From assembly GCA_021794095.1 (NCBI GenBank), contig JAJYRN010000009.1, forward strand, positions 62,001 to 126,000: 64,000 nt of DNA, written 5' to 3'. Every line of letters begins with the position of its first letter. Within the stretch, counting starts at the first letter, position 1. Under the pieces are notes generated by a model that was given only the letters and a program-made list of their open reading frames with translations, did no database searches and was not told where the DNA came from. The position numbers and the translations under genes are program-made. Below, piece by piece: positions 923 through 62,312 of this stretch. The DNA is from Acidobacteriota bacterium (lineage in GTDB: Bacteria > Acidobacteriota > Holophagae > Holophagales > Holophagaceae).

Positions 923-1843
923 CTACCTCACCCACCCCAGGTAGCCCAGCCACATCGCCCGGCCGAAGAACACGACGAGGGGCGTGGCGAGGGCCAGGAA
1001 GCAGCCGAAGGGCAACATCGTCTGGGATCCCGTGCGGCGGATGAGCATGAGCGGGATGCCCACGGCCGCGCCCAGGGCGGCGCCGAGGAAGAGGATGCCG
1101 AGCATCGGTCCCCAGCCCCAGAAGGCGCCGAGCCAGGCCAGCATCTTGAAATCGCCCATGCCCAGGCCATCGGTCTTGCGGATGGCCTTGTAGAGGAAGG
1201 CGATCAGGGCCGGGCCGCCATAGCCGAGCGCCAGGCCCAGCAGGCTGCCTTTCCAGGTGAGCGTCGCGCCGAAGGTGGACCAGGCGGGCGCCGGCTGGAG
1301 GCCGTTGTGCCAGAGGCTGACGGCCAGCAGGTTCGAAAAGCCATGCCCGCTGAGGATCACCACGGTCTGGTCCGCGAAGAGCGCCTGCGGCAGGGCGAAG
1401 AGAACCCCCAGGGCCATCAGGGGGAACTGGAGGACATCCGGCAGGATCATCTCGGTGAGGTCCGTGAAGAAGAGCACCAGCAGGGCGAAGCCGCAGATCA
1501 CGCCCTTCAGCCAGATCAGGGTGCCGAAGGGGAGGAGCCAGTGGGCCCCGCCCAGGATCAGGCCGCCCAACAGCTCCACAAGCGGGTAGCGGAACGGGAT
1601 GCGCCAGCCGCAGGCCGCGCACTTCCCCCGCAGCCAGAGCCAGCCGAACACCGGGATGTTATGCCAGGGCTTGATCCGCGCCTTGCAGGAGGGGCAGTGG
1701 CTGGCCCGGGTGATGACATCCCGTTCGGCAGGATCCTCCTGGGGCAGGCGGTGGATCAGCACATTGCAGAAGGATCCCAGCACCAGCCCGAACGGGGCCA
1801 GCAGGGCGGTGAGGATCCAGGGGGGCAGGTCCAGGAGGGGCAT
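923..1843 (-). CDS. pilD: Type IV prepilin peptidase / N-methyltransferase PilD
   Basis: Inner-membrane aspartyl protease (A24 family) that cleaves type IV prepilins and pseudopilins after the conserved Gly and methylates the new N-terminus. The 306-residue protein has the N-terminal cytoplasmic domain with two CxxC pairs (C50/C53, C75/C78), which marks the bifunctional form, followed by multiple membrane helices. Both catalytic aspartates are in context: FTDLTEMILPD and GMGDFK. The chosen ATG is preceded 6 nt upstream by a -10-like hexamer. The frame stays open much further upstream, but that extension is antisense to the cyclophilin gene and has no family similarity. Divergent from the cyclophilin gene, upstream of the kinase. 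Confidence 0.93.
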   Translation of the reverse strand: MPLLDLPPWILTALLAPFGLVLGSFCNVLIHRLPQEDPAERDVITRASHCPSCKARIKPWHNIPVFGWLWLRGKCAACGWRIPFRYPLVELLGGLILGGAHWLLPFGTLIWLKGVICGFALLVLFFTDLTEMILPDVLQFPLMALGVLFALPQALFADQTVVILSGHGFSNLLAVSLWHNGLQPAPAWSTFGATLTWKGSLLGLALGYGGPALIAFLYKAIRKTDGLGMGDFKMLAWLGAFWGWGPMLGILFLGAALGAAVGIPLMLIRRTGSQTMLPFGCFLALATPLVVFFGRAMWLGYLGWVR

Positions 1844-1849
1844 GCGTCC

Positions 1850-1855
1850 ACGATA
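1850..1855 (-). promoter_or_regulatory. -10-like hexamer for pilD, leaderless spacing
   Basis: TATCGT on the minus strand ends 6 nt before the pilD ATG, so transcription would begin at about the A of the start codon. No convincing -35 is seen. Confidence 0.35.
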
Positions 1856-1909
1856 CCGGGAGCTTCTTCCCCTTTCGCGGCAGAATAAAGGTGACGCCCC
1901 GGAGGCCCC

Positions 1910-2548
1910 GTGTTCCGCAGCCTGATCCTGTGCACCACCCTTGGCCTGGGCGCCCTGTCCGCCCAGCAGCCCCCGGCACCCGCCCCGGCCACCGCGCCCG
2001 TCCCCGCGCCGGAGCCCGCCCCCAAGGCCAAACCCCGGGTTCGCATAGATACCAGCTACGGTCCCATTGTGGTGGAGCTGGAGCCCGCCCTGGCTCCCGT
2101 CACCGTCGCAAACTTCCTCCAGTACGTGAAGGATGGCTTCTATAGCGGCACCATCTTCCACCGGGTCATCCCCGGCTTCATGATCCAGGGCGGCGGCCTC
2201 AGGGCAGACCTGACGGAGAAGCCCACCCGGCCCCCCATCCAGAACGAAGCGCCCCAGACCTTCAAGGCCGGGCTGAAGAACCTGCGCGGCACCCTGGCCA
2301 TGGCCCGCACCTCGGATCCGCAGAGTGCCGCCGCTGAGTTCTACATCAACCTGGTGGACAATCCCTCCCTCGACCACCGCGACTACTCGCCCGAGGGCTA
2401 TGGCTACTGCGTCTTCGGGCATGTGGTGTCGGGCATGAAGGTGGTGGACAAGATCGCCCAGGTGCGCACCGAGTGGCGCCAGGGGCAGTCGGGCGTGCCC
2501 CAGTTCCCCGTGTTCATCAAGGGCGCCACGCTGCTGCCGCCCCAGTAG
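1910..2548 (+). CDS. Secreted cyclophilin-type peptidyl-prolyl cis-trans isomerase
   Basis: Catalyses prolyl cis-trans isomerisation during folding of exported proteins. The GTG start is preceded by GGAGG. Residues 1-18 form a signal peptide ending in LSAQ, followed by a Pro/Ala-rich linker to about residue 45. The cyclophilin domain then begins with DTSYGPIVVELEP and carries FHRVIPGFMIQGG (the catalytic Arg motif) and a VFGHVVSGMKVVDKIA tail. Length is 212 residues, typical for a periplasmic cyclophilin of the PpiA class plus linker. It stands alone and is divergent from pilD across a 66-bp intergenic promoter region. Confidence 0.9.
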   Translation: MFRSLILCTTLGLGALSAQQPPAPAPATAPVPAPEPAPKAKPRVRIDTSYGPIVVELEPALAPVTVANFLQYVKDGFYSGTIFHRVIPGFMIQGGGLRADLTEKPTRPPIQNEAPQTFKAGLKNLRGTLAMARTSDPQSAAAEFYINLVDNPSLDHRDYSPEGYGYCVFGHVVSGMKVVDKIAQVRTEWRQGQSGVPQFPVFIKGATLLPPQ

Positions 2549-5855: not shown

Positions 5856-6743
5856 TCAGGGCATCCCATCCTTTTCGTTGGCCTGGGTGATGACGCTGCC
5901 CGGCGGGACGCTGCGGGTGAGCCAGACGTTGCCGCCGATGGCGCTGCCCTTCCCGAGGGTGATGCGGCCCAGCACCGTGGCGTTGGAGTAGACGATGACA
6001 TCGTCCTCCACCACGGGATGGCGGGGCACGCCCTTCACGGGGTTCCCGAATTCATCCAGGGGGAAGCTCTTGGCGCCCAGGGTCACACCCTGGTAGAGGC
6101 GCACATTGCGGCCGAGCACGCAGGTTTCGCCGATGACGACGCCGGTGCCGTGGTCAATGAAGAAACGTTCGCCGATCTGTGCGCCGGGGTGGATGTCAAT
6201 GCCCGTGAGGCTGTGGGCGTGCTCGGTGATCATGCGGGGCAGCAGGGGCACGCCCAGCTTCAGCAGCTCGTGGGCGAGGCGCTGGCTGGTGATGGCCAGC
6301 AGGCCCGGATAGCAGAACAGCACCTCGTCGGGACTGGTGGCCGCCGGGTCGCCTTCGAAGCCCGCCTGGATGTCCGTGGCCAGCAGGCGCCGCACCTCGG
6401 GCAGCCGGGCGAGGAAGGCGCGGGCCAGGTCCAGGGCGCGGTCGGGGCAGGCGCCACAGGCGGGATCCGAGGCCATGAGGCCGCGCTGGATCTGCTCCAC
6501 CAGGCCGTGCAGCACCCGGTCCATGCGGGCGCCCAGGTGGTAGCGCAGCGTCTCCGCCTTCAGCTCGGAAGCGCCGAAATACCCCGGGAAGAGCAGGGCC
6601 CGCAGCTCCTCTACGAGACCCGCCAGGGCCGTGCGGGAGGGGAACTCCCGCCGTCCCAGGGGCATCTCCGTGAGGGCCGTGGCGGCCTCGGCCAAGGCCT
6701 CGACGACGGCGTGGAGGTCGGGGGGGGTGGATTCCTTCGGCAT
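5856..6743 (-). CDS. cysE: Serine O-acetyltransferase
   Basis: Makes O-acetyl-L-serine from L-serine and acetyl-CoA, the first step of cysteine synthesis, in the cytoplasm. The 295-residue protein has a long helical N-terminal domain (to about residue 175), then a left-handed beta-helix of hexapeptide repeats with HPGAQIGERFFIDHGTG and VVIGETCVLG, ending PPGSVITQ. The long N-terminal region with the insert CGACPDRALD resembles the EpsC-type variant more than E. coli CysE. The ATG is chosen because it has a leaderless -10 signature and because the upstream extension lacks similarity. Coupled to the holin-like gene downstream. Confidence 0.9.
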   Translation of the reverse strand: MPKESTPPDLHAVVEALAEAATALTEMPLGRREFPSRTALAGLVEELRALLFPGYFGASELKAETLRYHLGARMDRVLHGLVEQIQRGLMASDPACGACPDRALDLARAFLARLPEVRRLLATDIQAGFEGDPAATSPDEVLFCYPGLLAITSQRLAHELLKLGVPLLPRMITEHAHSLTGIDIHPGAQIGERFFIDHGTGVVIGETCVLGRNVRLYQGVTLGAKSFPLDEFGNPVKGVPRHPVVEDDVIVYSNATVLGRITLGKGSAIGGNVWLTRSVPPGSVITQANEKDGMP

Positions 6744-6750
6744 GGGAGTG

Positions 6751-6756
6751 AGGATA
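6751..6756 (-). promoter_or_regulatory. -10-like hexamer for cysE, leaderless spacing
   Basis: TATCCT on the minus strand, 7 nt before the cysE ATG. Confidence 0.4.
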
Positions 6757-6898: not shown

Positions 6899-9800
6899 TC
6901 AGTAGGTCCAGCTCAGGCTGCAGCCGGTCTCCTTGGCCAGGCGCTCGGCCAGGTTGGGATCGTGGCGCAGGTTCATGTCGCGGCCGGCGCGGACGCGGGC
7001 GACGAGGCCCTCCTTCGAGCGGTACTCGAAGGTGATCGGCAGGTCACCCCGGCAATCGGCGAGGAGGGTGGCCAGGCGGGGGGGGCACTCGCCCACGGGG
7101 AGGCGCACCAGGGCGCCGTTGAAGCCGCGGCCCTGGAAGCCCTCCAGGGATTCGAGCTGGGTGGCGAAGAGTTTCACCACGGTCTGGTCGTCCTCTTCTT
7201 CGTTTTCGCCGTTTCCGTTGCCAGTGATGGTCTCCACCCGCAGTTCCCCGGTGATGCGCAGCATCGCCTCGGGCAAGGCGAGGTGGCCGTAATCCCGGAA
7301 GGGATGGAGGGCATCCTTCTTCCGGCTGACGGGATCCCACTTGCTGGCCATGAGGAGGACTTCCAGCTTGCCGGTCAGATCCTCCACCTGGAGGATGGCC
7401 CAGGGCTCGCCCTTCGGGTTGGTCTTGAAGGCCACGCTGGTGACCATGGCGCCCAGTACGACTTCCTCGCGGTCCTTGAGGCGCCCGGCCGTGGCGTCTT
7501 CCACGATCTTGGCGATGGAGCCGTGGGTGTGCACCTTCAGGGCATCGGCGAATTCCTCCAGAGGATGCCCGCTGACGAAGAGGCCCAGCACCTCCCGTTC
7601 CGCCTTGAGGCGTTCCTTGCGCTCCCAGGGTTCGATGTCCTCGGGTACCCGCCAGTCCTCGCTGAGGCTGGCCATCTCGGCATCGTCGAAGAGGCTGGTC
7701 AGGCCCAGGTCGGCGCCACCCCCGCGGGAGGCGGCGGAGAGGGCGTCGGGCAGGCCCTCCACCAGGGCCCGGCGGTTGGGTTCCAGGCTGTCAAAGGCTC
7801 CGGCCTTGATGAGCGACTCCCACACCTTGCGGTTGGCTTTCTGGAGATCGGTGCTCTTGAGGGCGTGGAAGAGATCCTTGAAACGGCCCTCGGTTTGGCG
7901 AGCCTCGAGAATCGCCTGCAACGCTGCCTCGCCCAGGCCCTTCACGGCGGCGAAGCCGAACCGGATCTGCCGGTCCCCGGTCGCCATGAAATCGAGCGCC
8001 GAATCGTTGATGTCGGGGCCCAGCACCTCGATGCCGCGGTCCCGGCAGTTCTGCACGTACTTGGCCACGTCCTCGGTGCGGCCGGATTTGGTGGAAAGCA
8101 GGCCCGCCATGAATTCCACGGGGTAGTTCGCCTTCAGGTAGGCGGTCTCGTAGGCCACCAGGGCATAGGCCGCGCTGTGGCTCTTGTTGAAGCCGTAGCC
8201 GGCGAAGTACTCGATGAGGTCGAACAGCTCGGCCACCTTGGTCTTGTCGTAGCCACGCGCGGCGCCCTGCTCGATGAACTTGTCCTTCTCCTTCTGCATC
8301 TTCACCAGATCCTTCTTGCCCATGGCGCGGCGCAGCATGTCCGCTTCGCCCAGGGTGTACCCGGCCACCAGGCTGGCGAGCTGCATCACCTGCTCCTGGT
8401 AGAGGATCACGCCGTAGGTGGGCGCCAGGATGGGCTCCAGCTGCGGGAACAGGTAGGTGACGGGCTCGCGGCCATGCCGGCGCTCCACGTAGGTGGTGCC
8501 CATGCCGGCGCCCAGGGGGCCGGGCCGGAAGAGGGCGTTGAGGGCGATGAGGTCGTCGAAGCGGTCCGGGCCCAGCTGGCGGAGCAGCTGCTTCATGCCG
8601 CCGGATTCGAACTGGAACACGCCATCGGTGTCGCCCGCGGCGAAGAGATCGAAGGTCTTCTTGTCGTCGAAGGTGCGGATGGCGGCCATGTCCGCCGGGG
8701 CGCCGTGGCGCTGGGCGATGACGCCCTGGATCTTGGCGATCTGGGTGAGGGTTTCCAGGCCCAGGAAGTCCATCTTCAGCAGGCCCGCCCGCTCGGCCTC
8801 GGTCATGGTGTACTGCACCATCACCTTGCCGTCCTTGTCCTTGCAGAGGGGAGCGAACCGCGTGAGGTCATCCGGGGCGATGATGACGCCGGCCGCATGT
8901 ACACCGGTGTTGCGGGCCAGGCCCTCCAGCTGGGCGGCCACGTCCAGGATCTGCTTGACCTCAGGCTCCCGCTCGTAGCGCTCCCGGAGCTTCTCCACCC
9001 ACTCCAGGCAGTGCGCCACGGTCACCTTCTTTTTGGGATCGGGCGAAACGGCCGGGATCAGCTTGTTCAGCTCATTGGCCCAGCCGAAGTCCTTCTCGAA
9101 GACCCGCGCCACATCCTTGATGACGGCCTTGGTCTTGAGCTGGTTGATGGTGACGATGTTGCTCACCTTGTCCTGGCCATATTTCTCGGTGACGTAGTCA
9201 ATGACCCGCTGGCGCCCGTCGCGGCAGAAATCAATGTCCACATCGGGCATGGAGATGCGTTCGGGATTGAGGAAGCGCTCGAACAGCAGGTCGTACTGCA
9301 TGGGATCCAGATCCGTGATCCGCATGGACCAGGCCACGATGCTCCCCGCGGCGGAACCGCGGCCTGGACCCACGGGCACGCCCATCTCCCGGGCCTTGCG
9401 GATGAAATCCCAGACCAGCAGGAAGTAGCCCGGGAACCCCATCTTCAGCACCGTGTCCAGCTCGAAGGCGAGGCGTTCGCGGTACTTCTCCTCCGGGTAT
9501 TTCAGCACGCCGCGCTGCCAGAGCGGCCGGCACTCCGCGAGACGGGCTTCGAAGGACTCCCGCGCGATGTGGACGAAATAGGACTCCAGATCGTAGCCGG
9601 AAGGCACGGGGAACTGCGGCGTGACGGGCTTCCGCGTGATGGGGAAGAGATCCACCTTGGCGGCGATCTCGAGGGTGCGCTCCAGGTACTCCGGGTGGCC
9701 CGGGAACACGGCGCGCATCTCCTCGGGCGTCTTCACGAAGAACTGGTCCGTGGAGAAACGCATGCGCTTCTCCTTCGCCTTGGTGGTCTTGGTGCCGATG

Positions 9801-10537
9801 CAGAGCAGCGTGTCATGCAGGTCGGAATCGTCGTGGTTGAGGTAGTGGGCATCGTTGGTGCCTACGAGGGGGATGCCCAGCTTCGCCGCCAGTTCCTGCT
9901 GGAAGGGGATGATCTCCCGCTCCTTGTCGAAGCCCTGGTCCTGGATCTCCAGGTAGAAGTCTTCGCCGAAGATGTCGCGAAAGTCGCGGGCCACGCGCTC
10001 CGCCTGATCGAGCCGGTTCTGGAGGATGCGGGCCTGCACCTCTCCGCCCAGGCAGGCCGATAGCGCGATGAGCCCCTCGCTGTGTTCGCGGAGCAGATCC
10101 TTGTCAATGCGGGGCTTGTAGTAGAACCCTTCGGTGAAGCCCTTGGAGACGAGCTTGCTGAGGTTGGCGAAGCCGGTGGGGTTCTTGGCCAGCAGCACCA
10201 GGTGGTAGCCCGCGTCGCGGGAGCCGCTGGGATCCACGCAATCCTCCAGGCCCTCTTCGCCCGTGGCGTTCCTCGCCTCCAGCTTCCGGTCGAAGCGGGT
10301 CTTCGGGGCCACGTACACCTCGCAGCCCAGAATGGGCTTCACGCCCCAGGTGCCGCTCTCATCCTGGGTCTGCTCGCAGGCATCGAAGAGCTTCATCATG
10401 CCGTACATGTTCCCGTGGTCCGTCACGGCCACGGCGGGCATGCCCGAGGCTTGGCACTTCTTCACAAGATCGGGGATGCGGGTGAGGCCGTCGAGGAGTG
10501 AGTACTCGGTGTGCAGGTGGAGATGGGCGAAGCTCAT
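6899..10537 (-). CDS. dnaE: DNA polymerase III alpha subunit
   Basis: Replicative 5'-3' DNA polymerase, 1212 residues, the normal DnaE length. The N-terminal PHP domain starts with HLHTEYSLLDG. The palm carries MPDVDIDFCRDGR with the catalytic aspartates near residue 430, preceded by GPGRGSAAGS. The fingers and tandem HhH region carry GFNKSHSAAYALVAY, and an OB fold (about 1000-1100, VVLGAMVTSVAFKTNPKG) precedes the C-terminal tau-binding region. The PHP metal-site residues look complete, so a proofreading role is possible. No dnaQ or PolC is in the window. The ATG follows a -10-like hexamer by 6 nt. Confidence 0.98.
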   Translation of the reverse strand: MSFAHLHLHTEYSLLDGLTRIPDLVKKCQASGMPAVAVTDHGNMYGMMKLFDACEQTQDESGTWGVKPILGCEVYVAPKTRFDRKLEARNATGEEGLEDCVDPSGSRDAGYHLVLLAKNPTGFANLSKLVSKGFTEGFYYKPRIDKDLLREHSEGLIALSACLGGEVQARILQNRLDQAERVARDFRDIFGEDFYLEIQDQGFDKEREIIPFQQELAAKLGIPLVGTNDAHYLNHDDSDLHDTLLCIGTKTTKAKEKRMRFSTDQFFVKTPEEMRAVFPGHPEYLERTLEIAAKVDLFPITRKPVTPQFPVPSGYDLESYFVHIARESFEARLAECRPLWQRGVLKYPEEKYRERLAFELDTVLKMGFPGYFLLVWDFIRKAREMGVPVGPGRGSAAGSIVAWSMRITDLDPMQYDLLFERFLNPERISMPDVDIDFCRDGRQRVIDYVTEKYGQDKVSNIVTINQLKTKAVIKDVARVFEKDFGWANELNKLIPAVSPDPKKKVTVAHCLEWVEKLRERYEREPEVKQILDVAAQLEGLARNTGVHAAGVIIAPDDLTRFAPLCKDKDGKVMVQYTMTEAERAGLLKMDFLGLETLTQIAKIQGVIAQRHGAPADMAAIRTFDDKKTFDLFAAGDTDGVFQFESGGMKQLLRQLGPDRFDDLIALNALFRPGPLGAGMGTTYVERRHGREPVTYLFPQLEPILAPTYGVILYQEQVMQLASLVAGYTLGEADMLRRAMGKKDLVKMQKEKDKFIEQGAARGYDKTKVAELFDLIEYFAGYGFNKSHSAAYALVAYETAYLKANYPVEFMAGLLSTKSGRTEDVAKYVQNCRDRGIEVLGPDINDSALDFMATGDRQIRFGFAAVKGLGEAALQAILEARQTEGRFKDLFHALKSTDLQKANRKVWESLIKAGAFDSLEPNRRALVEGLPDALSAASRGGGADLGLTSLFDDAEMASLSEDWRVPEDIEPWERKERLKAEREVLGLFVSGHPLEEFADALKVHTHGSIAKIVEDATAGRLKDREEVVLGAMVTSVAFKTNPKGEPWAILQVEDLTGKLEVLLMASKWDPVSRKKDALHPFRDYGHLALPEAMLRITGELRVETITGNGNGENEEEDDQTVVKLFATQLESLEGFQGRGFNGALVRLPVGECPPRLATLLADCRGDLPITFEYRSKEGLVARVRAGRDMNLRHDPNLAERLAKETGCSLSWTY

Positions 10538-10543
10538 GGACCC

Positions 10544-10549
10544 ATTGTG
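10544..10549 (-). promoter_or_regulatory. -10-like hexamer for dnaE, leaderless spacing
   Basis: CACAAT on the minus strand, 6 nt before the dnaE ATG; no Shine-Dalgarno sequence fits in the gap. Confidence 0.35.
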
Positions 10550-10585
10550 GGACGCGGCGGGGGGCTGCGGGCAAGTGCCGCGCGG

Positions 10586-11809
10586 TCAATGCTCCCTGGT
10601 GGGGCCCAGGAGCTGCTCCAGGGCGGCGCGCAGATCGCTCTCGGTGACGGGAGGGGCCAGGCGGACATGGGGGCCGTCCGTGCGGGGGCCGCCGATCTGG
10701 ATCCAGCGGGCGCGCCGGCGCAGCAGGTCGTCTTCGCGCCAGACCGCCAGGATGCTGGGCTCCCGGGCCCACACGAGCATGCTGGGGTAGGGGCCTTCGC
10801 GAGGCGGGACCGTGCTCCAGACCTCGATATCGGCTCCCCAGGCCCGCAACCAGCCCTCGATCCGGCTGGCGTCGGCGGAGGCATCCATGCCGAGGGCCAC
10901 GGTCCAGCCGGCGAGGAACCCGCTCAGGCCGGGGTGGGTATCCTCGTCCCGGGCCAGCCAGCCCATCAGGTGGCGCCGCGGCAGGGGGCGCGTCGTGAGC
11001 CGGTAGCTGGTGCCGTTCAGGGCGACGACGCGATCCAGCCCGTCGCGGCGGAGCAGATCCGGCCAGCCGGGCCCGAAGGCAGTCTCCAGGAATGAGGACG
11101 GGCGGTCGGTTCGGAACGTGGCACCAGGCATCAGGGCGCGCCAGGCTTCGGCTTCGTCCGCGGTCTCCTGGATCTGGTCACGCAGGGATTGGGTGGCCAG
11201 CCACTGCCAGGCGCTGCCGATGACGATGGCCAGCAGCATCATGCTCAGGCCCGTCAGATGGACCCGCATGCCGAACAGGGTGCTGGCGGCCACTTCCACC
11301 ACCACGGGGAAGGAGGCGGCGAGAAACCCGTAGAAGAAGCGTGTCCCCATGGGATCGCCGAGCATCCGCGCCCGCAGGGCGGCCCGGATCATGATGCCGC
11401 AGCCCATCAGGTAGGTCAGGTCGGCGGCATAGCCCAGGGCGGCATCTACCGGGTGAGTCAGGGGGCGCAGCGCGACCCGGGCGAGGTCCGGCAGCAGCCC
11501 CAGGGTGATCCAGCGCGGGAAATGCCGGGGCATGGCGCGGGGAAACAGGTGGACCAGCGCGGCGCAGAGGGCGATGAATCCGAGGGCCGACAGCAGGATC
11601 TGCGTGCGCGCTGCGAAGCCCAGCGGATCGGCGCCGTGGCCGTCGAAGCAGACCACGCCATGGCGCAGTCCCAGCAGGAGGCAGCCGACTGCCATCCAGC
11701 CCATCAGGCGGTCCCGTCGGACCAGGGCATCCGCGCCGTAGGCCGCGGCGAGGGCGAAGAGCGCCCCTGCCTGGAAGGCGTCGAGGAGGGTCCAGTCCAA
11801 CTGCTGCAT
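10586..11809 (-). CDS. Seven-helix membrane protein of unknown function
   Basis: I do not recognise this 407-residue protein. About residues 10-215 contain seven hydrophobic segments resembling a 7TM sensor-type membrane domain (for example GWMAVGCLLLGLRHGVV and LSMMLLAIVIGSAWQWLA). A short coiled linker (SLRDQIQETADEAEAWR) leads to a soluble C-terminal half with no kinase, cyclase or phosphatase motif. I start it at the ATG giving MQQLDW; the frame extends 90 nt further upstream but has no ribosome site there. A TAGGCT -10-like sequence lies at about 11850. It is divergent from the ABC operon. It could be a degenerate 7TMR sensor. Confidence 0.75.
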   Translation of the reverse strand: MQQLDWTLLDAFQAGALFALAAAYGADALVRRDRLMGWMAVGCLLLGLRHGVVCFDGHGADPLGFAARTQILLSALGFIALCAALVHLFPRAMPRHFPRWITLGLLPDLARVALRPLTHPVDAALGYAADLTYLMGCGIMIRAALRARMLGDPMGTRFFYGFLAASFPVVVEVAASTLFGMRVHLTGLSMMLLAIVIGSAWQWLATQSLRDQIQETADEAEAWRALMPGATFRTDRPSSFLETAFGPGWPDLLRRDGLDRVVALNGTSYRLTTRPLPRRHLMGWLARDEDTHPGLSGFLAGWTVALGMDASADASRIEGWLRAWGADIEVWSTVPPREGPYPSMLVWAREPSILAVWREDDLLRRRARWIQIGGPRTDGPHVRLAPPVTESDLRAALEQLLGPTREH

Positions 11810-11900
11810 GCGGGATCTTTCGGCTGGTGGGAGGATGGGGTGCTTCCAGCCTAATCCATTCCCGCGCCGGCTCGTAGCCGCAAGCATCCTGGAGCCCATT

Positions 11901-13163
11901 GTGATCGCCTTCGAGAACCTGGATGTGCGCTATGGCCCTGCCGCGCCTCCCGCCCTGAAGGGCCTGACCCTGCGTCTGGACCAGGGCATCGTGGGCCTGC
12001 TCGGACCCAATGGCGCCGGGAAATCCACCCTGCTGAAGGCCCTGCTGGGCCTGCTGCAGCCCTTCGCCGGCACGGGCACGGTGCTGGGCATTCCACTGGG
12101 CGCGCCCGACGCGGCCCGCCTGCGGAGCCGCATCGGCTACATGCCGGAGTACGATGCGCTCATCGAGGATGCCTCCGCCTACGAACAGGTGGCGTTCTGG
12201 GGCGAACTGTCGGGCCTGGCGCCGGAAGCCGCCCGGGACCGGGCCCACGAGGTGCTCTATTTCGTGGGGCTGGACGAATCCCGCTACCGCCCCGTCAGCG
12301 GGTATTCCACCGGCATGCGCCAGCGGGTGAAACTGGCTCAGGCCCTGGTCCACAGCCCGGAGCTGGTGTTCCTGGACGAGCCCACGAACGGCCTGGATCC
12401 CGATGGCCGGCGCCGCATGCTGGACCTGGTCCTGCGCGTCCACGCGGAGCTGGGCACGGGGGTCGTCCTGGCCTCCCACCTGCTGGGCGATGTGGAACGG
12501 GTGGCGGATCAACTGGTGATCCTGGATCAGGGTGAGATCAAGGCGGCGGGCTCCATGACGGGCCTGCGGAGGGTTCTGGCGAAGCGGGTGGAATTGCGAT
12601 TCCTGGAGCCCCTGGAAGCCGCCCAGGAGGCCGGCCTGGCCGAACTGGGCGCGGTGCTGGAGGCCCGCAACGGCCTCTACGATCTGGAGCTGAAGGAGGC
12701 GGATCCGGCGGCCATCTTCCGCTGGGCTCAGGCCCGGGGCGCCACGCTGGTCCAGCTCACGCCGCGCCACGACCGGCTGGACGAGGTCCTCCTCCGGGCG
12801 CTGCATGGGACTCCTGTCCGGGGGACCGGCCTGCGGCCTACACCCCCGGAACCCCCGCGTCCGGATCAGGCGGAGCCTGCTCCGGATGATGCTGTCCGGG
12901 GGACCGGCCTGCGGCCTACACCCCCGGAACCCCCGCGTCCGGATCAGGCGGAGCCTGCTCCGGATGATGCTGTCCGGGGGACCGGCCTGCGGCCTACGCC
13001 CCCGGAACCCCCGCGTCCGGATCAGGCGGAGCCTGCTCCGGATGATGCTGTCCGGGGGACCGGCCTGCGGCCTACACCCCCGGAACCCCCGCGTCCGGAT
13101 CAGGCGGAGCCTGCTCCGGACTTCCTGCCCGGTGCGGAAACCTCTGCTCGGGAGGAACGCTGA
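11901..13163 (+). CDS. ABC-2 exporter ATPase with a repeat-encoded C-terminal tail
   Basis: ATP-binding subunit of an ABC-2-type exporter. Walker A GPNGAGKST (about residue 37), signature YSTGMRQRVK, Walker B LVFLDEPTNGLD and the switch His in ASHLLG are all intact. The normal ABC protein ends near residue 305 (RLDEVLLRALHG). From there four copies of a 26-residue proline-rich unit (beginning RGTGLRPTPPEPPRPDQ) extend it to 420 residues. These are translated from a 78-bp tandem DNA repeat. The GTG start is chosen because it has GGAG upstream and begins directly with the family N-terminus MIAFENLDVRYGP. First gene of a four-gene operon; the permease follows with a 1-nt gap. Confidence 0.9.
   Translation: MIAFENLDVRYGPAAPPALKGLTLRLDQGIVGLLGPNGAGKSTLLKALLGLLQPFAGTGTVLGIPLGAPDAARLRSRIGYMPEYDALIEDASAYEQVAFWGELSGLAPEAARDRAHEVLYFVGLDESRYRPVSGYSTGMRQRVKLAQALVHSPELVFLDEPTNGLDPDGRRRMLDLVLRVHAELGTGVVLASHLLGDVERVADQLVILDQGEIKAAGSMTGLRRVLAKRVELRFLEPLEAAQEAGLAELGAVLEARNGLYDLELKEADPAAIFRWAQARGATLVQLTPRHDRLDEVLLRALHGTPVRGTGLRPTPPEPPRPDQAEPAPDDAVRGTGLRPTPPEPPRPDQAEPAPDDAVRGTGLRPTPPEPPRPDQAEPAPDDAVRGTGLRPTPPEPPRPDQAEPAPDFLPGAETSAREER
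12816..13120. repeat. Tandem array A: 78-bp double-hairpin repeat, 3.9 copies
   Basis: Units start at 12816, 12894, 12972 and 13050, exactly 78 bp apart and nearly identical. Each unit holds two potential hairpins: CCGGGGG...CCCCCGG with an inner GGCC-tgc-GGCC, and CCGGatCAGGC-gga-GCCTGctCCGG. Because 78 is 26 codons, the reading frame of the ATPase gene runs through the array. The unit aligns without gaps to that of array B at 14945. Confidence 0.95.
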
Positions 13164-16223: not shown

Positions 16224-16229
16224 TAGACT
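16224..16229 (+). promoter_or_regulatory. -10 TAGACT, leaderless spacing, for the M16 peptidase gene
   Basis: TAGACTGG ends 6 nt before the ATG. The GGAGGG in the spacer abuts the ATG and is too close to act as a normal Shine-Dalgarno sequence. Confidence 0.45.
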
Positions 16230-16235
16230 GGAGGG

Positions 16236-17504
16236 ATGGCTGAACCCTTCCGCACCCTCACGCCCGACGGCACCGAGATCCTGATCGAACCCCTCCCCCA
16301 TGTCCGGAGCTGCGCGGTGGGGTTCTGGGTGCGGCGGGGCTCCCGCCATGAGGGCCCGGCAGAGGAGGGCTTGGCCCACTTCCTGGAACACACGGTCTTC
16401 AAGGGGACGGAAGCCTTTCCCAGCCCGGACGCGGTGGCCGAGGCCACGGATCGCCTGGGGGGCCATGTGGATGCCTTCACGGGCAAGGAGGTGGCCTGCT
16501 TCTACGGCAAGGTTCTTTCGGACCAGCTGCCGGACCTGGTGCGACTCCTGGGGGATCTGGTCACCACCCCCCGCTTCGACGCGGAGGAACTGGCCCGGGA
16601 GCGCAGCGTCATCCTGGAGGAGATCGCCCAGAGCGAGGACACGCCCGACGACTGGGTGAGCGAGCTGTTCTACGGCCGCTTCTGGGAGGGTTCGCCCCTC
16701 GCCCACCCGATCCTGGGGCGTCCGGAGCAGGTGGCCGGCTATGGCCCCGCAGAGGCCCGGGCCTTCTTCGAGGCCACCTACCGGCCCGCGAATCTGGTGA
16801 TCACCGCCGCGGGGGCCATCCAGCCGGAGCGCCTCCTGGACCTGCTCCATCCCGTGCTGGCGAAGCTGCCCCGGGGGGCCGGCCACGGGGCGGACAGCCC
16901 CAGCCGCACCCGGCCCTTCCTGCTCAACATGCCGCGCCGCGACCTTCAGCAGGTGAACCTGGTGCTGGGATTCCCGGCCCCTTCCCACCGGAGCTCGGAC
17001 CGGGCCGCCGCGAACCTGCTGAGCCACGTGCTGGGCGGCGGCGCCGCCTCGCGTCTCTTCATGGAACTGCGGGAGCGCCGCGGCCTCTGCTACCAGGTCG
17101 GCAGCTACTTGAGCCCCTATGCCGACACCGGGGCCCTCCAGATCACCGCCAGCTGCGCCGCCGCCCAGGCCCGGGAGCTGGTGCAGCGCGCCCTGGCCGA
17201 ATGCGCCCGGATCCGCGAACAGGGCGTCGCGCCCGACGAGCTGGAGCGCGCCAAACTCCAGGCCCGCACCAGCCTCGTCTTCGGCCAGGAATCCAGCAGC
17301 AGCCGCATGTTCAGCCTGGCCCACCAGTCCATCCACCAGGGCCAGCTGCAAACGCTCGACGAGCAGATGGCCGAGATCGAGGCCGCCACGGGGGCGGATC
17401 TGCTCCGCGTCGCCCGCGCCCTCCTCGATCCCGCCCAGGCTGGCCTCAGCGCCCTCGGCACCCGCAAGGGCGGCGAGATCCGGGCGAAGGATCTGGTGGC
17501 CTGA
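16236..17504 (+). CDS. M16 family zinc peptidase, processing-peptidase-like
   Basis: 422-residue single-unit M16B peptidase related to mitochondrial processing peptidase beta and B. subtilis MlpA/YmxG. The zinc motif HFLEH (HxxEH) is at about residues 47-51, in EEGLAHFLEHTVFKGT, with the third ligand Glu in ARERSVILEEI. No signal peptide, so cytoplasmic. The C-terminal half has the expected GGGAASRLFMELRERRGLCY flap motif. The stop overlaps the start of rlmN (TGATG), so the two are coupled. Probably a dimeric oligopeptidase; substrate unknown. Confidence 0.93.
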   Translation: MAEPFRTLTPDGTEILIEPLPHVRSCAVGFWVRRGSRHEGPAEEGLAHFLEHTVFKGTEAFPSPDAVAEATDRLGGHVDAFTGKEVACFYGKVLSDQLPDLVRLLGDLVTTPRFDAEELARERSVILEEIAQSEDTPDDWVSELFYGRFWEGSPLAHPILGRPEQVAGYGPAEARAFFEATYRPANLVITAAGAIQPERLLDLLHPVLAKLPRGAGHGADSPSRTRPFLLNMPRRDLQQVNLVLGFPAPSHRSSDRAAANLLSHVLGGGAASRLFMELRERRGLCYQVGSYLSPYADTGALQITASCAAAQARELVQRALAECARIREQGVAPDELERAKLQARTSLVFGQESSSSRMFSLAHQSIHQGQLQTLDEQMAEIEAATGADLLRVARALLDPAQAGLSALGTRKGGEIRAKDLVA

Positions 17505-28427: not shown

Positions 28428-28433
28428 TAGACT
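28428..28433 (+). promoter_or_regulatory. -10 TAGACT, leaderless spacing
   Basis: TAGACT ends 6 nt before the ATG at 28440; the spacer TCCCCC cannot pair with anti-SD. Confidence 0.45.
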
Positions 28434-28439
28434 TCCCCC

Positions 28440-28766
28440 ATGCCCAAGCCCTTGAGCAAGGCTCGTTTGCGCGCCGCCTGGATCGTGGCCATCGCGGTGG
28501 ATGCCGTGCAGATCCCGGTGGAGGCCACGGGCCTGCTCGGGTGGCTGCTGGGGGCGGGGCTGGACGTGGCCACGATGGTCGTCCTGACGGCTCTGGTGGG
28601 CTTTCACTGGGCCTTCCTGCCCTCGTTCGTCACGGAATGGATTCCCTACATTGACTATGCCCCGCTCTGGACACTCGCTGTCATGATCGCCACACGGAAC
28701 CGGCCCGTGCCGGTTCCATCCCGTCCCATCCCCGAAGGAGGTTCCCATGAAGGTGAACATCGGTAG
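28440..28766 (+). CDS. Small membrane protein of unknown function
   Basis: 108 residues with three hydrophobic segments (about 12-30, 36-60, 70-85) and a Pro/Arg-rich tail. The segment AVDAVQIPVEATGLLGWLLGAG-type layout occurs in uncharacterised small bacterial membrane proteins. I cannot name a function. The 3' end overlaps the next gene by 20 nt, so the YgaP-like protein is probably co-expressed. Confidence 0.75.
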   Translation: MPKPLSKARLRAAWIVAIAVDAVQIPVEATGLLGWLLGAGLDVATMVVLTALVGFHWAFLPSFVTEWIPYIDYAPLWTLAVMIATRNRPVPVPSRPIPEGGSHEGEHR

Positions 28767-33109: not shown

Positions 33110-33700
33110 TCAGGTCCGTCTCGCCACCATGAGGTACTCCCGGCCCGCCCGCCGGGGATGGCTCCGGCGGGCGTGGTCGAGGTGCAGCACCTCGAACTGG
33201 GCGCCGGCCAGGCGCCGCAGCTCTGCCATGGGAATGGCGTGGGGCGGCGCGGGCCGGCCTTGCACATCGTGGAAGGCCACCGCCAGCCAGAGCCCGCCGG
33301 GGCGCAGGTTCCGGGCGCAGGCGGCCACGTAGGCGGGCCACCGGTCCGGCTCCATGGCCACCAGGCAGGTGTGGTCGAACAGGGCATCCCAGGGGCCGAG
33401 CTGCGTGGTGAACCAATCCTCCTGGGCCCAGTGGACCGCCTCGCCATAGCGCGCCCGGGCGCCCGCCAGTGCGAGGGGCGCGACATCCAGGCCCGTGGCT
33501 GCGTAGCCGAGATCCGCCAGGCCGGCGGCGTCGTGGCCGTAGCCGCAGCCGGGTACCACCACGGCGGCCCCGGGCGCCAGTCCGAGCGGAGCCGCCAGCG
33601 CCAGCGCCTCCTCCAGCACGGGCGTGGCCCGGCCCATGTCCCAGGACAGGCGTTCACCGGTTTCGTAAAGGGCATTCCAGGGGGTTCGAGGCTCCGTCAT
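33110..33700 (-). CDS. SAM-dependent methyltransferase, thiopurine/halide type
   Basis: 196 residues, matching the TPMT/UPF0119-like small-molecule methyltransferase family: PWNALYETGERLSWDMG at the N-terminus, SAM motif I VVVPGCGYGHDAAGLA, motif II GLDVAPLAL, and FDHTCLVAMEPDRW with the conserved DxxxLxAxxP-type region. Cytosolic. The frame continues far upstream, antisense-free but through the YcaQ-like gene; the ATG giving MTEPRTPWN is chosen for similarity and its leaderless -10. Physiological acceptor (thiol, halide or other) unknown. Confidence 0.88.
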   Translation of the reverse strand: MTEPRTPWNALYETGERLSWDMGRATPVLEEALALAAPLGLAPGAAVVVPGCGYGHDAAGLADLGYAATGLDVAPLALAGARARYGEAVHWAQEDWFTTQLGPWDALFDHTCLVAMEPDRWPAYVAACARNLRPGGLWLAVAFHDVQGRPAPPHAIPMAELRRLAGAQFEVLHLDHARRSHPRRAGREYLMVARRT

Positions 33701-33706
33701 GGAACC

Positions 33707-33712
33707 AGGATG
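33707..33712 (-). promoter_or_regulatory. -10-like hexamer, leaderless spacing, for the methyltransferase gene
   Basis: CATCCT on the minus strand, 6 nt before the ATG. Confidence 0.3.
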
Positions 33713-36568: not shown

Positions 36569-38626
<2,058 letters not shown>

Positions 38627-42003: not shown

Positions 42004-42576
42004 CTACTCTGTGGGCTTCTCCCCGGGCGGTTCGGCTCCGGGAGCCGGGTCGGCGGAAGGCTCGGTAGGGCCGGCGAAGCGTTGCGCGCGAAGGTGGAAG
42101 TCGTCGGTGAAGACGCGGCGGACGGGGGGCGGCGGTTCCGCCTCCGTCCGGAGGCGTGCCCGGCGGAGGCCCCACAGGGCCCAGGCCACCGGCAGCAGGA
42201 GCAGGAAGGGGTACTGCAGCAGGAGCCGCTGCGGCGTGAGGCGGTACTGATCGGGTCGGAGGCCGTCGCTCACGGCACTGTCCAGCACCCAGATCGTCTC
42301 GCCCGGGGCCAGCTCCGCCGCCTCGGCTTTGAGCAGGGTCAGGTCGCGTTCCTGCTGGCCCTCCTTCACGGTCACCGAATCGGTGATCTGGCTCTGGGGA
42401 TCCCGGTTCACGCTCACCACCGTCACATGGGCCACGCCAGGGCCCTGCCAGTGGCAGAAGGGATTCCAGACCAGCAGAAGCACCTGCACCAGCTCCACCC
42501 AGGCCACCGCGATCACGACGCCCCACAGCGCCACCAGGGCGCTCCAGCGAAGGGTGGGACGGGCGAAGAGACGCAT
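42004..42576 (-). CDS. Two-helix membrane protein of unknown function
   Basis: 190 residues: TM1 (about 12-36, VALWGVVIAVAWVELVQVLLLVW), an extracytoplasmic domain with a QGPGVAHVTVVSV start, TM2 (about 118-138), and a cytoplasmic Pro/Glu-rich tail. No recognised domain. Has the leaderless -10 arrangement. Adjacent to but separately promoted from the hydrolase gene. Confidence 0.7.
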   Translation of the reverse strand: MRLFARPTLRWSALVALWGVVIAVAWVELVQVLLLVWNPFCHWQGPGVAHVTVVSVNRDPQSQITDSVTVKEGQQERDLTLLKAEAAELAPGETIWVLDSAVSDGLRPDQYRLTPQRLLLQYPFLLLLPVAWALWGLRRARLRTEAEPPPPVRRVFTDDFHLRAQRFAGPTEPSADPAPGAEPPGEKPTE

Positions 42577-42582
42577 GGCGGC

Positions 42583-42588
42583 AGTATC
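42583..42588 (-). promoter_or_regulatory. -10 GATACT, leaderless spacing
   Basis: Minus-strand GATACT, 6 nt before the ATG at 42576. The surrounding CTGGGATACTGC is repeated almost exactly before the hydrolase gene start at 43311. Confidence 0.45.
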
Positions 42589-42594
42589 CCAGGT

Positions 42595-43311
42595 TCACCC
42601 CTGCCCGTTGGGCGAGATCCGCCCGAGAAAATCCTGGAGGGCCAGGGCGGCAGCCTCGGGCCGGGCCTGGAGAATCCAGTGGGGCGCCTGGAGGGTGACG
42701 ATGTCGAGGCCCTTCAGGTGGGTGCGGAGGTGGCGCAGGGCCGCAGGGGGCACCACCCGGTCGTGGGCAGCCGCCAGGGCCAAGGTGGGTACCGCGATGC
42801 GCCCCAGCCGCGCCGTCTCATTCACCGCGATCACGGCCAGGAGGCGGTCGCGCAGCGTGGCTTTCGGCACCGCCGTCAGTAGGCGTCGCACGAGATCCAT
42901 CAGGGGCGGGGTGGCCCAGGAGCCCAGCAGCAGGAAGCGCACCATTCCGGCGGGCAGCCGCAGCGGTGGCAGCAGGCGCAGCAGCGTCCCGGCCCAGGCC
43001 AGGCCGGGCCGGGGGTTGCGGGCGAAGGTGCCGCAGAGCACCAGGCCCCGCAGACCCGCCGGCCGCTCCGCCGCCAGGGCGAGGGCCACCGGGCCGGAGA
43101 AGGATTCCCCCAGCAGCAGGAAGGGCCGGTCCTTCGGCAGCTGGGTGCGGGCGAAGTGGCTGCAGGCCGCGTAGGACACCAGCGCCTCGGGGTAGCGCAC
43201 CACCTGCGTGTTCCAGTCAGGCAGGGCCGCCAGGAAAGGCTCGAACATCAGGCCCGTCCCGTCCAGACCGGGCAGCAGGACCAGCAGCGGGCGTTCCTCG
43301 GGTGGGGGCAT
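42595..43311 (-). CDS. Alpha/beta hydrolase
   Basis: 238-residue alpha/beta hydrolase. Oxyanion motif LPGLDGTG near residue 16, nucleophile elbow LLGESFSGPV (GxSxG variant GESFSG), and a C-terminal AHDRVVPP Asp plus a His in LQAPHWIL complete the triad. Similar in layout to the YqjL/MenH-like group. The ATG is chosen from the leaderless -10 and the start of similarity; a longer in-frame start would overlap the deacylase gene upstream. Substrate unknown. Confidence 0.85.
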   Translation of the reverse strand: MPPPEERPLLVLLPGLDGTGLMFEPFLAALPDWNTQVVRYPEALVSYAACSHFARTQLPKDRPFLLLGESFSGPVALALAAERPAGLRGLVLCGTFARNPRPGLAWAGTLLRLLPPLRLPAGMVRFLLLGSWATPPLMDLVRRLLTAVPKATLRDRLLAVIAVNETARLGRIAVPTLALAAAHDRVVPPAALRHLRTHLKGLDIVTLQAPHWILQARPEAAALALQDFLGRISPNGQG

Positions 43312-43317
43312 GGCAGC

Positions 43318-43323
43318 AGTATC
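43318..43323 (-). promoter_or_regulatory. -10 GATACT, leaderless spacing, for the hydrolase gene
   Basis: Minus-strand GATACT, 6 nt before the ATG at 43311. Confidence 0.45.
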
Positions 43324-51717: not shown

Positions 51718-51909
51718 ATGTCCCGTCAGTGCGAAATCTGTGGCAAGAAGCCCCAGTTCGGGAACAACGTCTCCCACTCCAACAACATCACCAAGCGCCG
51801 CTGGAACCCGAACATCCAGCGCGTGCGTGCCCTCGTGGGCGGTGTGCCCAAGCGGCTGCGCGTCTGCACGTCCTGCATCCAGGCCGGCAAGGTTCTGAAG
51901 GCCGTCTAG
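51718..51909 (+). CDS. rpmB: 50S ribosomal protein bL28
   Basis: 63-residue large-subunit protein: [22 protein letters not shown] at the start (given in part), [12 protein letters not shown] in the middle and [15 protein letters not shown] at the end. The two CxxC pairs show the zinc-binding (C+) paralogue form. Single gene between a clear promoter and a strong terminator. Confidence 0.97.
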
Positions 51910-51971: not shown

Positions 51972-51977
51972 TACACT
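51972..51977 (+). promoter_or_regulatory. -10 TACACT, leaderless spacing, for tsaB
   Basis: TACACTGG, ending 7 nt before the tsaB ATG. Confidence 0.45.
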
Positions 51978-51984
51978 GGATCCC

Positions 51985-52680
51985 ATGCTGCTCGCCCTCG
52001 ATACCACCACGGAGATCCTCCACCTGGCGCTGATCCAGGGCGACCGGGCCTGGACGCGGCGGGTGGCCTCGGGACCGGGGCGGGGCCACAGCGAGCGGCT
52101 GCTCCCGGCCCTGGACGCCCTGCTGGCGGAGGCGGGCGGCAAGCCCGCGGACCTCACGGGCGTGGCCGCCTGCGTGGGGCCGGGCGGGTTCACGAGCCTG
52201 CGCATCGGCGTGGCCACAGCCGAGGGCCTGGGCCTCACGGGCCTGCCCACCTGGGGCTTCTCCGCCTTCGCCTTCCGGGCCGAGGCCCTGCGTCAGGCGG
52301 GCGTGGCGGGCCCGGTGTGGATCCTCCTGGATGGCCAGCGGGGCGAGGCCTTCCACCAGCGCTGGGTGGCGGAGGCCACGGAACCGGCCGCCAAGCATCC
52401 CCTCGCCACCCTGGCGGAGCGCGTGAAGGGCGAGCCCTGGTGGGCGCCGGAGGCCTACGCGCCCACGGTGGCGTCGGTGCTGACCGAAGGCCGGATCACC
52501 CTGGCGGACGAGGGCGCGGCCATGCTGGCGGGCCTGGTGGCCCTGGCGCGGCGCGTGGCTCAGGGGCCGCCGGAGAACCCGCTCACCCCCTTCTACCTGC
52601 GCCAGACGGACGCGGAGCTGAACTTCCCCCACGCCGCCGCCCATCTGCCGGAGACCCTGCGCAAGGGCGTGGCGCGATGA
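51985..52680 (+). CDS. tsaB: tRNA threonylcarbamoyladenosine biosynthesis protein TsaB
   Basis: Part of the TsaBDE complex that makes t6A37 in ANN-decoding tRNAs. The 231-residue ASKHA-fold protein has LLALDTTTEILHLALI, GHSERLLPALDALLAEAG and CVGPGGFTSLRIGVATAEGL. It is a catalytically inactive partner of TsaD. The stop overlaps the next start (ATGA), giving a tsaB-rimI-MutS-like operon. Confidence 0.95.
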   Translation: MLLALDTTTEILHLALIQGDRAWTRRVASGPGRGHSERLLPALDALLAEAGGKPADLTGVAACVGPGGFTSLRIGVATAEGLGLTGLPTWGFSAFAFRAEALRQAGVAGPVWILLDGQRGEAFHQRWVAEATEPAAKHPLATLAERVKGEPWWAPEAYAPTVASVLTEGRITLADEGAAMLAGLVALARRVAQGPPENPLTPFYLRQTDAELNFPHAAAHLPETLRKGVAR

Positions 52681-55467: not shown

Positions 55468-56151
55468 ATGTCGACTTTAGTGCGATTGAGTTTTATGGCA
55501 GATGAGCAAACTTCTCCAGTTGAACTCTCTCAGTTCTTATATTTGTTTGTATCAACTTATCGAGCATTACAGAAAATTTCACAGGATTCGCCGATAGAAA
55601 GCATTGATTACGTGCTACCCAAAGCTGGTTTATTAGGTAATTTGAAATATGTTGATATTAAACAATGTGTGGAAGATAGAAGTTTTGATACCGATCCAAA
55701 AATTACCTCAATCAAACAACAAAGTCCAATTGAAATATTAGTTCTAGGACCCGTGTTGTTATTATCTATTGCAGCGATTCTCTCTGGTGGAAAACAAAAG
55801 ATAAAGCTAGGACCAATGCAATTTGAATTTAACCTTAACTCTCTAGGTGATTCGATTGCCAAGTTGAGACTTGCTTTGACTAATAATCCATCTCTACAAA
55901 CTGGTTATGAATTTAAAGGAGCGAAAATTAAATTAAGTAAAGAAGAATATTTATATTTGAATAAAGAAGTGAACAATAATGGTGGGTTCCAGCGTTTTCT
56001 GCATGAACTTCAAATTAGGGTCCATAAAAGAACAAGAGAGATTGAGCTTAGCAATAAGGATATAGAAAAAATTTTAAAATACAAAACGAAACCGGATAAA
56101 GGAGGTTTTCAATTAAGGTTTAAGAAGATTTTCGGAAAACATTTTGATTAA
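55468..56151 (+). CDS. AT-rich membrane protein of unknown function in the methyltransferase cassette
   Basis: 227 residues. A soluble N-terminal part (1-85) is followed by one hydrophobic segment (about 90-112, IEILVLGPVLLLSIAAILSG) and a Lys/Glu/Asn-rich C-terminal half. No signal peptide and no nuclease motif that I can identify. Perfect AAAAGGAG site 6 nt upstream of the ATG; TTCACA and TACACT at 55422-55448 are a weak promoter. Its stop overlaps the stop of the convergent methyltransferase gene by 3 nt, so the pair arrived as a unit. Confidence 0.82.
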   Translation: MSTLVRLSFMADEQTSPVELSQFLYLFVSTYRALQKISQDSPIESIDYVLPKAGLLGNLKYVDIKQCVEDRSFDTDPKITSIKQQSPIEILVLGPVLLLSIAAILSGGKQKIKLGPMQFEFNLNSLGDSIAKLRLALTNNPSLQTGYEFKGAKIKLSKEEYLYLNKEVNNNGGFQRFLHELQIRVHKRTREIELSNKDIEKILKYKTKPDKGGFQLRFKKIFGKHFD

Positions 56152-57622: not shown

Positions 57623-57628
57623 TAGCCT
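57623..57628 (+). promoter_or_regulatory. -10-like TAGCCT, leaderless spacing, for the NtrY-like kinase gene
   Basis: TAGCCT, ending 7 nt before the ATG. Confidence 0.35.
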
Positions 57629-59878: not shown

Positions 59879-59884
59879 TATGCT
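59879..59884 (+). promoter_or_regulatory. -10 TATGCT, leaderless spacing
   Basis: TATGCT ends 6 nt before the epimerase ATG. Confidence 0.4.
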
Positions 59885-59890
59885 GGCGGG

Positions 59891-60778
59891 ATGGAGACCG
59901 GAGCGACTTCGACGGGAATCTGCCTCATCGCGGGTTGCGGCTACGTCGGGACGCGGCTGGCCCGGCGCCTGGGCGGGCCGGTGCTGGCGCTGGTGCGCAC
60001 GGCGGCCTCGGCAGAGGCGCTGTGCAGGGCGGGGATCCCGGCCCAAGCCGTGGACCTGGGTGGTGGCGACCTGCCCGTGCCGGGTGATCTGGGCGCCGTG
60101 GTCTATCTGGCTCCGCCGGGAGGCGAGGGTGGCTTCGATGATCGTCTCCGCGCCTTCCTGGCAGCCCTGGGCGGAGTCCGGCCCCGGATGTTCCTCTATG
60201 CCAGCACCACGGGCGTCTACGGGGATGCCGGGGGCGCCGAGGTGGACGAGGCCACGCCGCCCACACCCGGGAATGACCGGGCGCGGCAGCGGCTGGATGC
60301 GGAACGCCAGGCCCAGGCCTGGTGCGCGGCCCGGGGCGTCCGCTGGGTGGTGTTCCGGGTCGCGGCTATCTACGGCCCCCACCGTCTGCCCCTGGAGCGC
60401 CTCCGCCGCGGGGAACCGGTGCTGCGGCCCGAGGACACGGGTCCGGGCCACCGCATCCACGTGGATGACCTGGTGGCCGCCTGCACGGCGGCCCTGACCG
60501 GCACCGCCGAGGGCATCTTCAACCTCATGGATGGGTTTCCCTGGAGCGTGGCCGAGTTTACGGAGCGGTTGGCCGCGATTGCGGGGCTGCCCGTGCCCCG
60601 GCGCATCGGCTGGGCGGAGGCTGAGCGGGTCTTGAGCCCGGGCCTCCTGGCCTTCCTGCGGGACCGCCGGAGGGTGCGATCGCACCGGCTGGCGGAGCTG
60701 GGGATCTCGCGCAGGCCCCCCGATACGGGCATTCGCGACAGCCTGAGGGAGATGGGGCTCAGTAGCGCAGGACGCTGA
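59891..60778 (+). CDS. NAD(P)-dependent epimerase/dehydratase-like protein (YeeZ group)
   Basis: 295-residue extended SDR. The Rossmann motif is GCGYVGTRLARRLGG, a GxGxxG, in place of the usual GATGFIG of sugar epimerases. LYASTTGVYGDAGG provides the Ser/Thr and Tyr region, and RVAAIYGPHRLPLERLRRG follows. The closest group is YeeZ/NAD(P)H-binding proteins, of unknown substrate. The 3' end overlaps the apt gene (convergent) by 20 nt. Confidence 0.85.
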   Translation: METGATSTGICLIAGCGYVGTRLARRLGGPVLALVRTAASAEALCRAGIPAQAVDLGGGDLPVPGDLGAVVYLAPPGGEGGFDDRLRAFLAALGGVRPRMFLYASTTGVYGDAGGAEVDEATPPTPGNDRARQRLDAERQAQAWCAARGVRWVVFRVAAIYGPHRLPLERLRRGEPVLRPEDTGPGHRIHVDDLVAACTAALTGTAEGIFNLMDGFPWSVAEFTERLAAIAGLPVPRRIGWAEAERVLSPGLLAFLRDRRRVRSHRLAELGISRRPPDTGIRDSLREMGLSSAGR

Positions 60779-62306: not shown

Positions 62307-62312
62307 AGTGTA
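62307..62312 (-). promoter_or_regulatory. -10 TACACT, leaderless spacing, for surE-acyP-apt
   Basis: Minus-strand TACACTGG; the hexamer ends 6 nt before the surE ATG. Confidence 0.45.

Follow-up and report, generated by a model that had tools for sequence, protein, structure and literature searches.

A −10 box abutting the start codon is a real and conserved feature of genes in this bacterium, and in a sizeable minority of genes the start codon is thus very probably the 5' end of the mRNA. Our confidence is high that the boxes are sigma-70 promoters without a clear −35 hexamer and with a G-rich discriminator, which would place +1 at the A of AUG and give leaderless mRNAs. At the level of sequence, this reading is carried by a conserved box at a fixed distance, a preference for ATG, and similar boxes that lie further upstream of leadered genes. 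The analysis started from the window, the whole 64,000-nucleotide stretch (67% GC), which belongs to a genome of 2.99 Mb. The best matches of its tsaB protein are from Geothrix and other Holophagaceae (73-94% identity), and thus we place the organism in or near Geothrix (Acidobacteriota).

Twelve genes in the window had been predicted to carry such a hexamer, and all 12 hexamers were present at the predicted positions, on the strand reading into the named gene, with a spacer before the ATG of 6 nt in nine genes and 7 nt in the other three (Table 1). Eight are strict TANNNT sequences and four are degenerate. A motif-blind gene finder picked the same start for 12 of 12 genes. The gene names fared less evenly, as pilD, tsaB and surE rest on profile matches, the cysE match is below cut-off, and dnaE is named by its N-terminus only. 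The adjacent genes at 42004-43323 share a near-identical start region, CCTGGGATACTGCYGCCATG, while their proteins look unrelated; this shared region is possibly a copied promoter-start.

Table 1. Hexamers abutting start codons in the window (positions in the window; spacer, bases between hexamer and ATG).
Hexamer	Position	Strand	Spacer	Gene	Assignment
TATCGT	1850..1855	-	6 nt	923-1843 (-)	pilD, prepilin peptidase; Pfam A24_N_bact/Peptidase_A24
TATCCT	6751..6756	-	7 nt	5856-6743 (-)	cysE-like serine acetyltransferase; TIGR01172 E 3e-48, under curated cut-off
CACAAT (degenerate)	10544..10549	-	6 nt	6899-10537 (-)	dnaE
TAGACT	16224..16229	+	6 nt	16236-17504 (+)	M16 peptidase; Pfam Peptidase_M16
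TAGACT	28428..28433	+	6 nt	28440-28766 (+)	108-codon ORF, weak gene call, low coding score; no match in Pfam or NCBIfam
CATCCT (degenerate)	33707..33712	-	6 nt	33110-33700 (-)	TPMT-like methyltransferase; Pfam TPMT
GATACT (degenerate)	42583..42588	-	6 nt	42004-42576 (-)	no match in Pfam or NCBIfam
GATACT (degenerate)	43318..43323	-	6 nt	42595-43311 (-)	alpha/beta hydrolase; Pfam Abhydrolase_1
TACACT	51972..51977	+	7 nt	51985-52680 (+)	tsaB
TAGCCT	57623..57628	+	7 nt	57636-59714 (+)	histidine kinase; HAMP, HisKA, HATPase_c
TATGCT	59879..59884	+	6 nt	59891-60778 (+)	NAD-dependent epimerase-like; Pfam Epimerase
TACACT	62307..62312	-	6 nt	61551-62300 (-)	surE; TIGR00087 above its cut-off

Beyond these sites, we sampled 464 kb (~15% of the genome), comprising the window and 20 stretches of 20 kb, on four contigs. 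Genes were called from codon usage and start-codon type only, blind to upstream sequence, and 24 of 36 E. coli starts (about two thirds) were called exactly; an alternative training on all long ORFs was dropped, as it is poor in high-GC genomes. Of the 393 genes, 20 had TANNNT at −12, where the per-position count between −55 and −20 predicts 2.56 (P = 5e-12); 4 genes had it at −13 and 3 at −11. The excess was present in the window alone (5 of 62 genes, 0.44 expected, P = 1e-4) and in the sample without it (15 of 331 genes, 2.1 expected, P = 8e-9). Thus, the result is independent of the sites chosen in the original prediction. A genome-wide motif search gave the same answer: among 87 matches in total to TANACT with an ATG after 1-16 further bases, a spacing of six bases occurred 26 times against a mean of 4.1 at other spacings (P = 3e-13), and a separate scan of this genome counted 27 at 6 bases versus 4 at 9 bases. 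With the same script, 100 kb of E. coli K-12 yielded no such peak, and the 150-kb Deinococcus radiodurans plasmid MP1 yielded 9 cases at −13/−12 against 1.3 expected (P = 8e-6).

Fitted or counted, the box reads T, A, G/C/T, C/A/G, C, T, then G G, which is close to the TAGACTGG and TACACTGG picked out originally. In its fitted form (T, A, G/T, C, C, T, then G) it agrees with the −10 hexamer of a canonical sigma-70 promoter. The statement that GG often follows the hexamer also held, with G as the first base after it in 71% of strict cases and as the second in 62%. A TTGACA-like −35 hexamer ~17 bp upstream of the box was not seen: TTG was found at any of 34 upstream offsets in just 3 of 24 strict cases, the surE and tsaB orthologues have no conserved −35, and an extended −10 (TGn, able to replace a −35) was seen in only 2 of 24 strict cases.

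We propose that the hexamer, which occupies −12 to −7 or −13 to −8 as counted from the start codon, acts as a −10 element and would be read by the housekeeping RNA polymerase, presumably with a sigma-70/RpoD-type factor. The polymerase would recognize the −10 and discriminator and melt the box, and the transcript would start 7-8 nt past it, with +1 predicted at the A of ATG, usually after a C. A message that starts there would therefore open with AUG and have no leader. Its translation would presumably use an intact 70S ribosome and initiator tRNA entering at the 5'-terminal AUG, a mode of initiation reviewed for other bacteria (PMC9031893). Across all gene starts in the window and sample, C occupies −1 in 62% and −2 in 53% of cases, in SD-led and leaderless genes alike, compared with 24% and 23% in an E. 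coli sample.

The same −10 boxes might instead direct starts 1-4 nt upstream of ATG, producing tiny leaders without an SD, which we consider improbable. Sigma-70 polymerase usually picks its start from within a few neighbouring bases, and 3 of the 12 window genes have a 7-nt spacer, with spacing varying by one base among relatives, all of which would suit such leaders; the position of the box does not separate a start at ATG from one 1-3 nt upstream. However, with the modal 6-nt spacer the usual +1 coincides with the A of ATG, mostly after C. Near-leaderless and leaderless messages are also usually treated as one class, and the difference between the two readings is small.

The genes concerned had been described as lacking SD sequences, and SD-like 4-mers were indeed scarce, occurring in 5 of 24 strict cases versus 196 of 369 other genes (P = 0.003), although this comparison is partly forced, as the hexamer itself occupies the SD place. 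That placement, and the overlap of the dnaE form GGAGAATGG with an SD-like GGAG in many relatives, could suggest that the hexamers are translation signals, forming an unusual ribosome-binding element rather than promoters. We reject this reading as very improbable. TANACT lacks complementarity to the anti-SD, and ordinary SDs lead most genes here. Additionally, TANACT occurs between −60 and −15 of first genes 15 times in sense and 5 times in antisense orientation, including before SD-led first genes, and before operon-internal genes in the same interval in 0 of 116 cases. Because the motif is sense-oriented before first genes and absent before operon-internal ones, these data support the boxes as promoters. 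Window examples with TANACT 15-60 nt upstream are the genes at 36569-38584, 51718-51909 and 55468-56151, all with SD-like sequences.

Start codons point the same way as the leaderless reading. All 24 strict cases start with ATG, versus 303 of 369 genes elsewhere (P = 0.02), and a GTG spacing scan gave no significant peak at 6 nt (6 of 60 sites), which fits a requirement for AUG without proving one.

Conservation was followed in four of the window genes. For surE, TANNNT stands at −12 in 29 of 29 distinct orthologue upstreams, mostly as TACACTGG or TAGACTGG; most of the spacer has drifted, and so has the DNA beyond the box. The tsaB box is kept as NANNNT, in the form [TC]A[CG]ACT near −12, in 22 of 22 Holophagaceae, 13 of them with strict TANNNT. 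The pilD TANNNT is kept in 21 of 21 genus loci counted, and similar boxes precede pilD in other genera of the family. The region upstream of pilD (window 1843-1910) also holds a conserved CATTCTGCCGCGAA block with CAGAAT on its other strand. This CAGAAT is likely to be the −10 of a divergently oriented gene at 1910; that gene is leadered and carries an SD (GGAGG).

The box of dnaE behaves differently, and the non-TANNNT form together with overlapping SD-like 4-mers makes this gene the weakest of the four. The dnaE probe came partly from general knowledge beyond residue 40 and was used only for locus finding, with starts read from the loci themselves. Most orthologues carry a [CG]A[GC]AATG-type box (GAGAAT, GACAAT or CACAAT) at the same place (28 of 29 fit NANNNT), yet strict TANNNT occurs in 0 of 29, the first T being missing in all, and an SD-like 4-mer occurs in 19 of 29, mostly GGAG overlapping the box. 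Two relatives (L227 in G047 and L231 in G044) have GGAGG or AGGAGG in place of the box, and there dnaE has probably changed from leaderless initiation to an SD-led one. A GGCACTTGCC-like dyad lies ~20 bp before the dnaE box (window ~10570-10579) and is kept in many Geothrix relatives (L205-L234); it is possibly an operator or −35 region.

TANNNT is a loose motif and a third of test starts were called inexactly, but chance matches or mis-called starts are refuted for the set as a whole and have almost no probability left, as wrong starts blur a peak and cannot make one, and an ~8-fold excess at a single position is joined by conservation in orthologues. For individual sites, such as that of the ORF at 28440, a chance match is conceivable.

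Leaderless transcription had been called widespread. The excess is real, yet the strict excess at −13/−12 amounts to just 4.8% of genes (95% CI 2.5-7.3%), which is a lower bound because the gene finder misses starts and degenerate boxes are uncounted. A mixture model fitted by EM assigned 13-17% of genes to the TA-led class, with a likelihood gain of 88 in the genome itself versus a maximum of 41 in column-shuffled nulls. These nulls also yielded sizeable EM fractions, and only the excess count is firm because the null fits are loose. We infer a plausible leaderless share of 7-13% of genes, with a floor of about 5%. Through its sharp spacing, genome-wide excess, orthologues, ATG-only starts and controls, the proposed mechanism remains a well-supported prediction for a minority of genes.

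The signal extends unevenly through the phylum. The peak at −13/−12 recurred in samples of one congener and one family member, and in 3 of 5 genomes of other Acidobacteriota families (P = 3e-7, 4e-6 and 2e-4). A low-GC genome from the same class (90 genes sampled) and family f29 lacked it, and one further sample, of 71 genes, is too small to judge. Spacings of 6 nt versus 9 nt were counted 30 versus 7 and 31 versus 6 times in two congeners, and across 40 genomes this contrast was strong in Geothrix, moderate in some families and absent in others.

Further evidence on the spacing comes from two divergent genes in another part of the genome. They encode a SAM methyltransferase that has a PUA-like domain and a type I phosphodiesterase (L015 10006-11196, −, and 11219-12376, +; G000:C4 about 70006-72376), and the palindrome AGGGTACCCT links their start codons, which lie 22 bp from each other. 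We compared 25 loci of this pair (L270-L294), from this genome and 24 congeners. TANNNT lies exactly at −12 on both sides in 25 of 25, while the start codons are 22 (5 loci), 29 (3), 30 (15), 74 (1) or 95 bp (1) apart; the commonest layout is ATG-6-box-6-box-6-ATG (30 bp). Thus, box spacing tracks the ATG rather than the neighbourhood, since −12 is constant while the gap ranges over 22-95 bp. The boxes hold their distance to the start codons and not to one another, as they should if every box fixes the +1 of its gene at that gene's ATG. In a gap of 22-30 bp, giving one of the genes an SD-bearing leader would shift that gene's promoter into its neighbour.

We tentatively suggest, at well below the confidence placed in the leaderless reading, that in Geothrix a compact promoter-start module, either ATG-6-box-6-box-6-ATG or the palindromic 22-bp form, may drive two divergent leaderless genes from sites too close together for polymerase to face more than one way at a time and, more generally, that such promoters may need no more than the −10 with its G-rich discriminator. 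With a divergent ATG on either side, the palindrome AGGGTACCCT counts among symmetric bidirectional promoters (for example PMC12825309, PMC10268837). In contrast to those, both transcripts here are predicted to be leaderless, and the boxes stand back to back in most relatives rather than overlapping. If the suggestion is true, the module would be a minimal symmetric switch with both transcripts lacking leaders. Pairs with 22-30 bp between start codons would be well suited to studying how so little DNA serves both polymerase and ribosome.

The original prediction regarded leaderless messages as not known to be a feature of this group, and this fails at the level of the phylum. Zheng et al. 2011 (PMC3160421) predicted leaderless genes in 3 of 3 Acidobacteria then examined (mean 13.3% of genes, range 9.7-19.4%), and described the bacterial TA-led signal as TANNNT ~12 bp before the start. 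The genes described here share with the TA-led genes of that study the TANNNT core ~12 bp upstream, in a high-GC form with a weak middle, and their minority status; a box ~12 bp upstream above chance, depleted SDs and ATG starts (usual but not obligatory in TA-led genes) are likewise all found here. In the Geothrix-like box the middle is not entirely free, with a preference for C as fifth base, and the hexamer is followed by GG.

Among Deinococcus-Thermus, a TANNNT abutting the ORF was shown by experiment to be the −10 of leaderless genes, with spacing requirements (PMC12340547, 2025). There the evidence is experimental and concerns ~30% of ORFs, whereas here the genes are fewer, the phylum is another and the evidence comes from sequence. 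The expected outcome is also that of mycobacterial leaderless transcriptomes, in which 5' ends were mapped at the start codon (PMC3898074, PMC4633059), while here they are predicted. TSS maps of Acidobacteria or Geothrix did not turn up in our literature search, with most subscription papers beyond its reach. Thus, leaderless genes in this organism are a well-supported further instance of a known phenomenon, already predicted for the phylum.

The set of predicted leaderless genes now extends to Geothrix and the Holophagaceae, with examples at the level of single genes that are backed by orthologues. A direct test is easy, because named Geothrix strains exist. For genome annotation, the choice of start codons in this group needs a −10 model besides the SD model.
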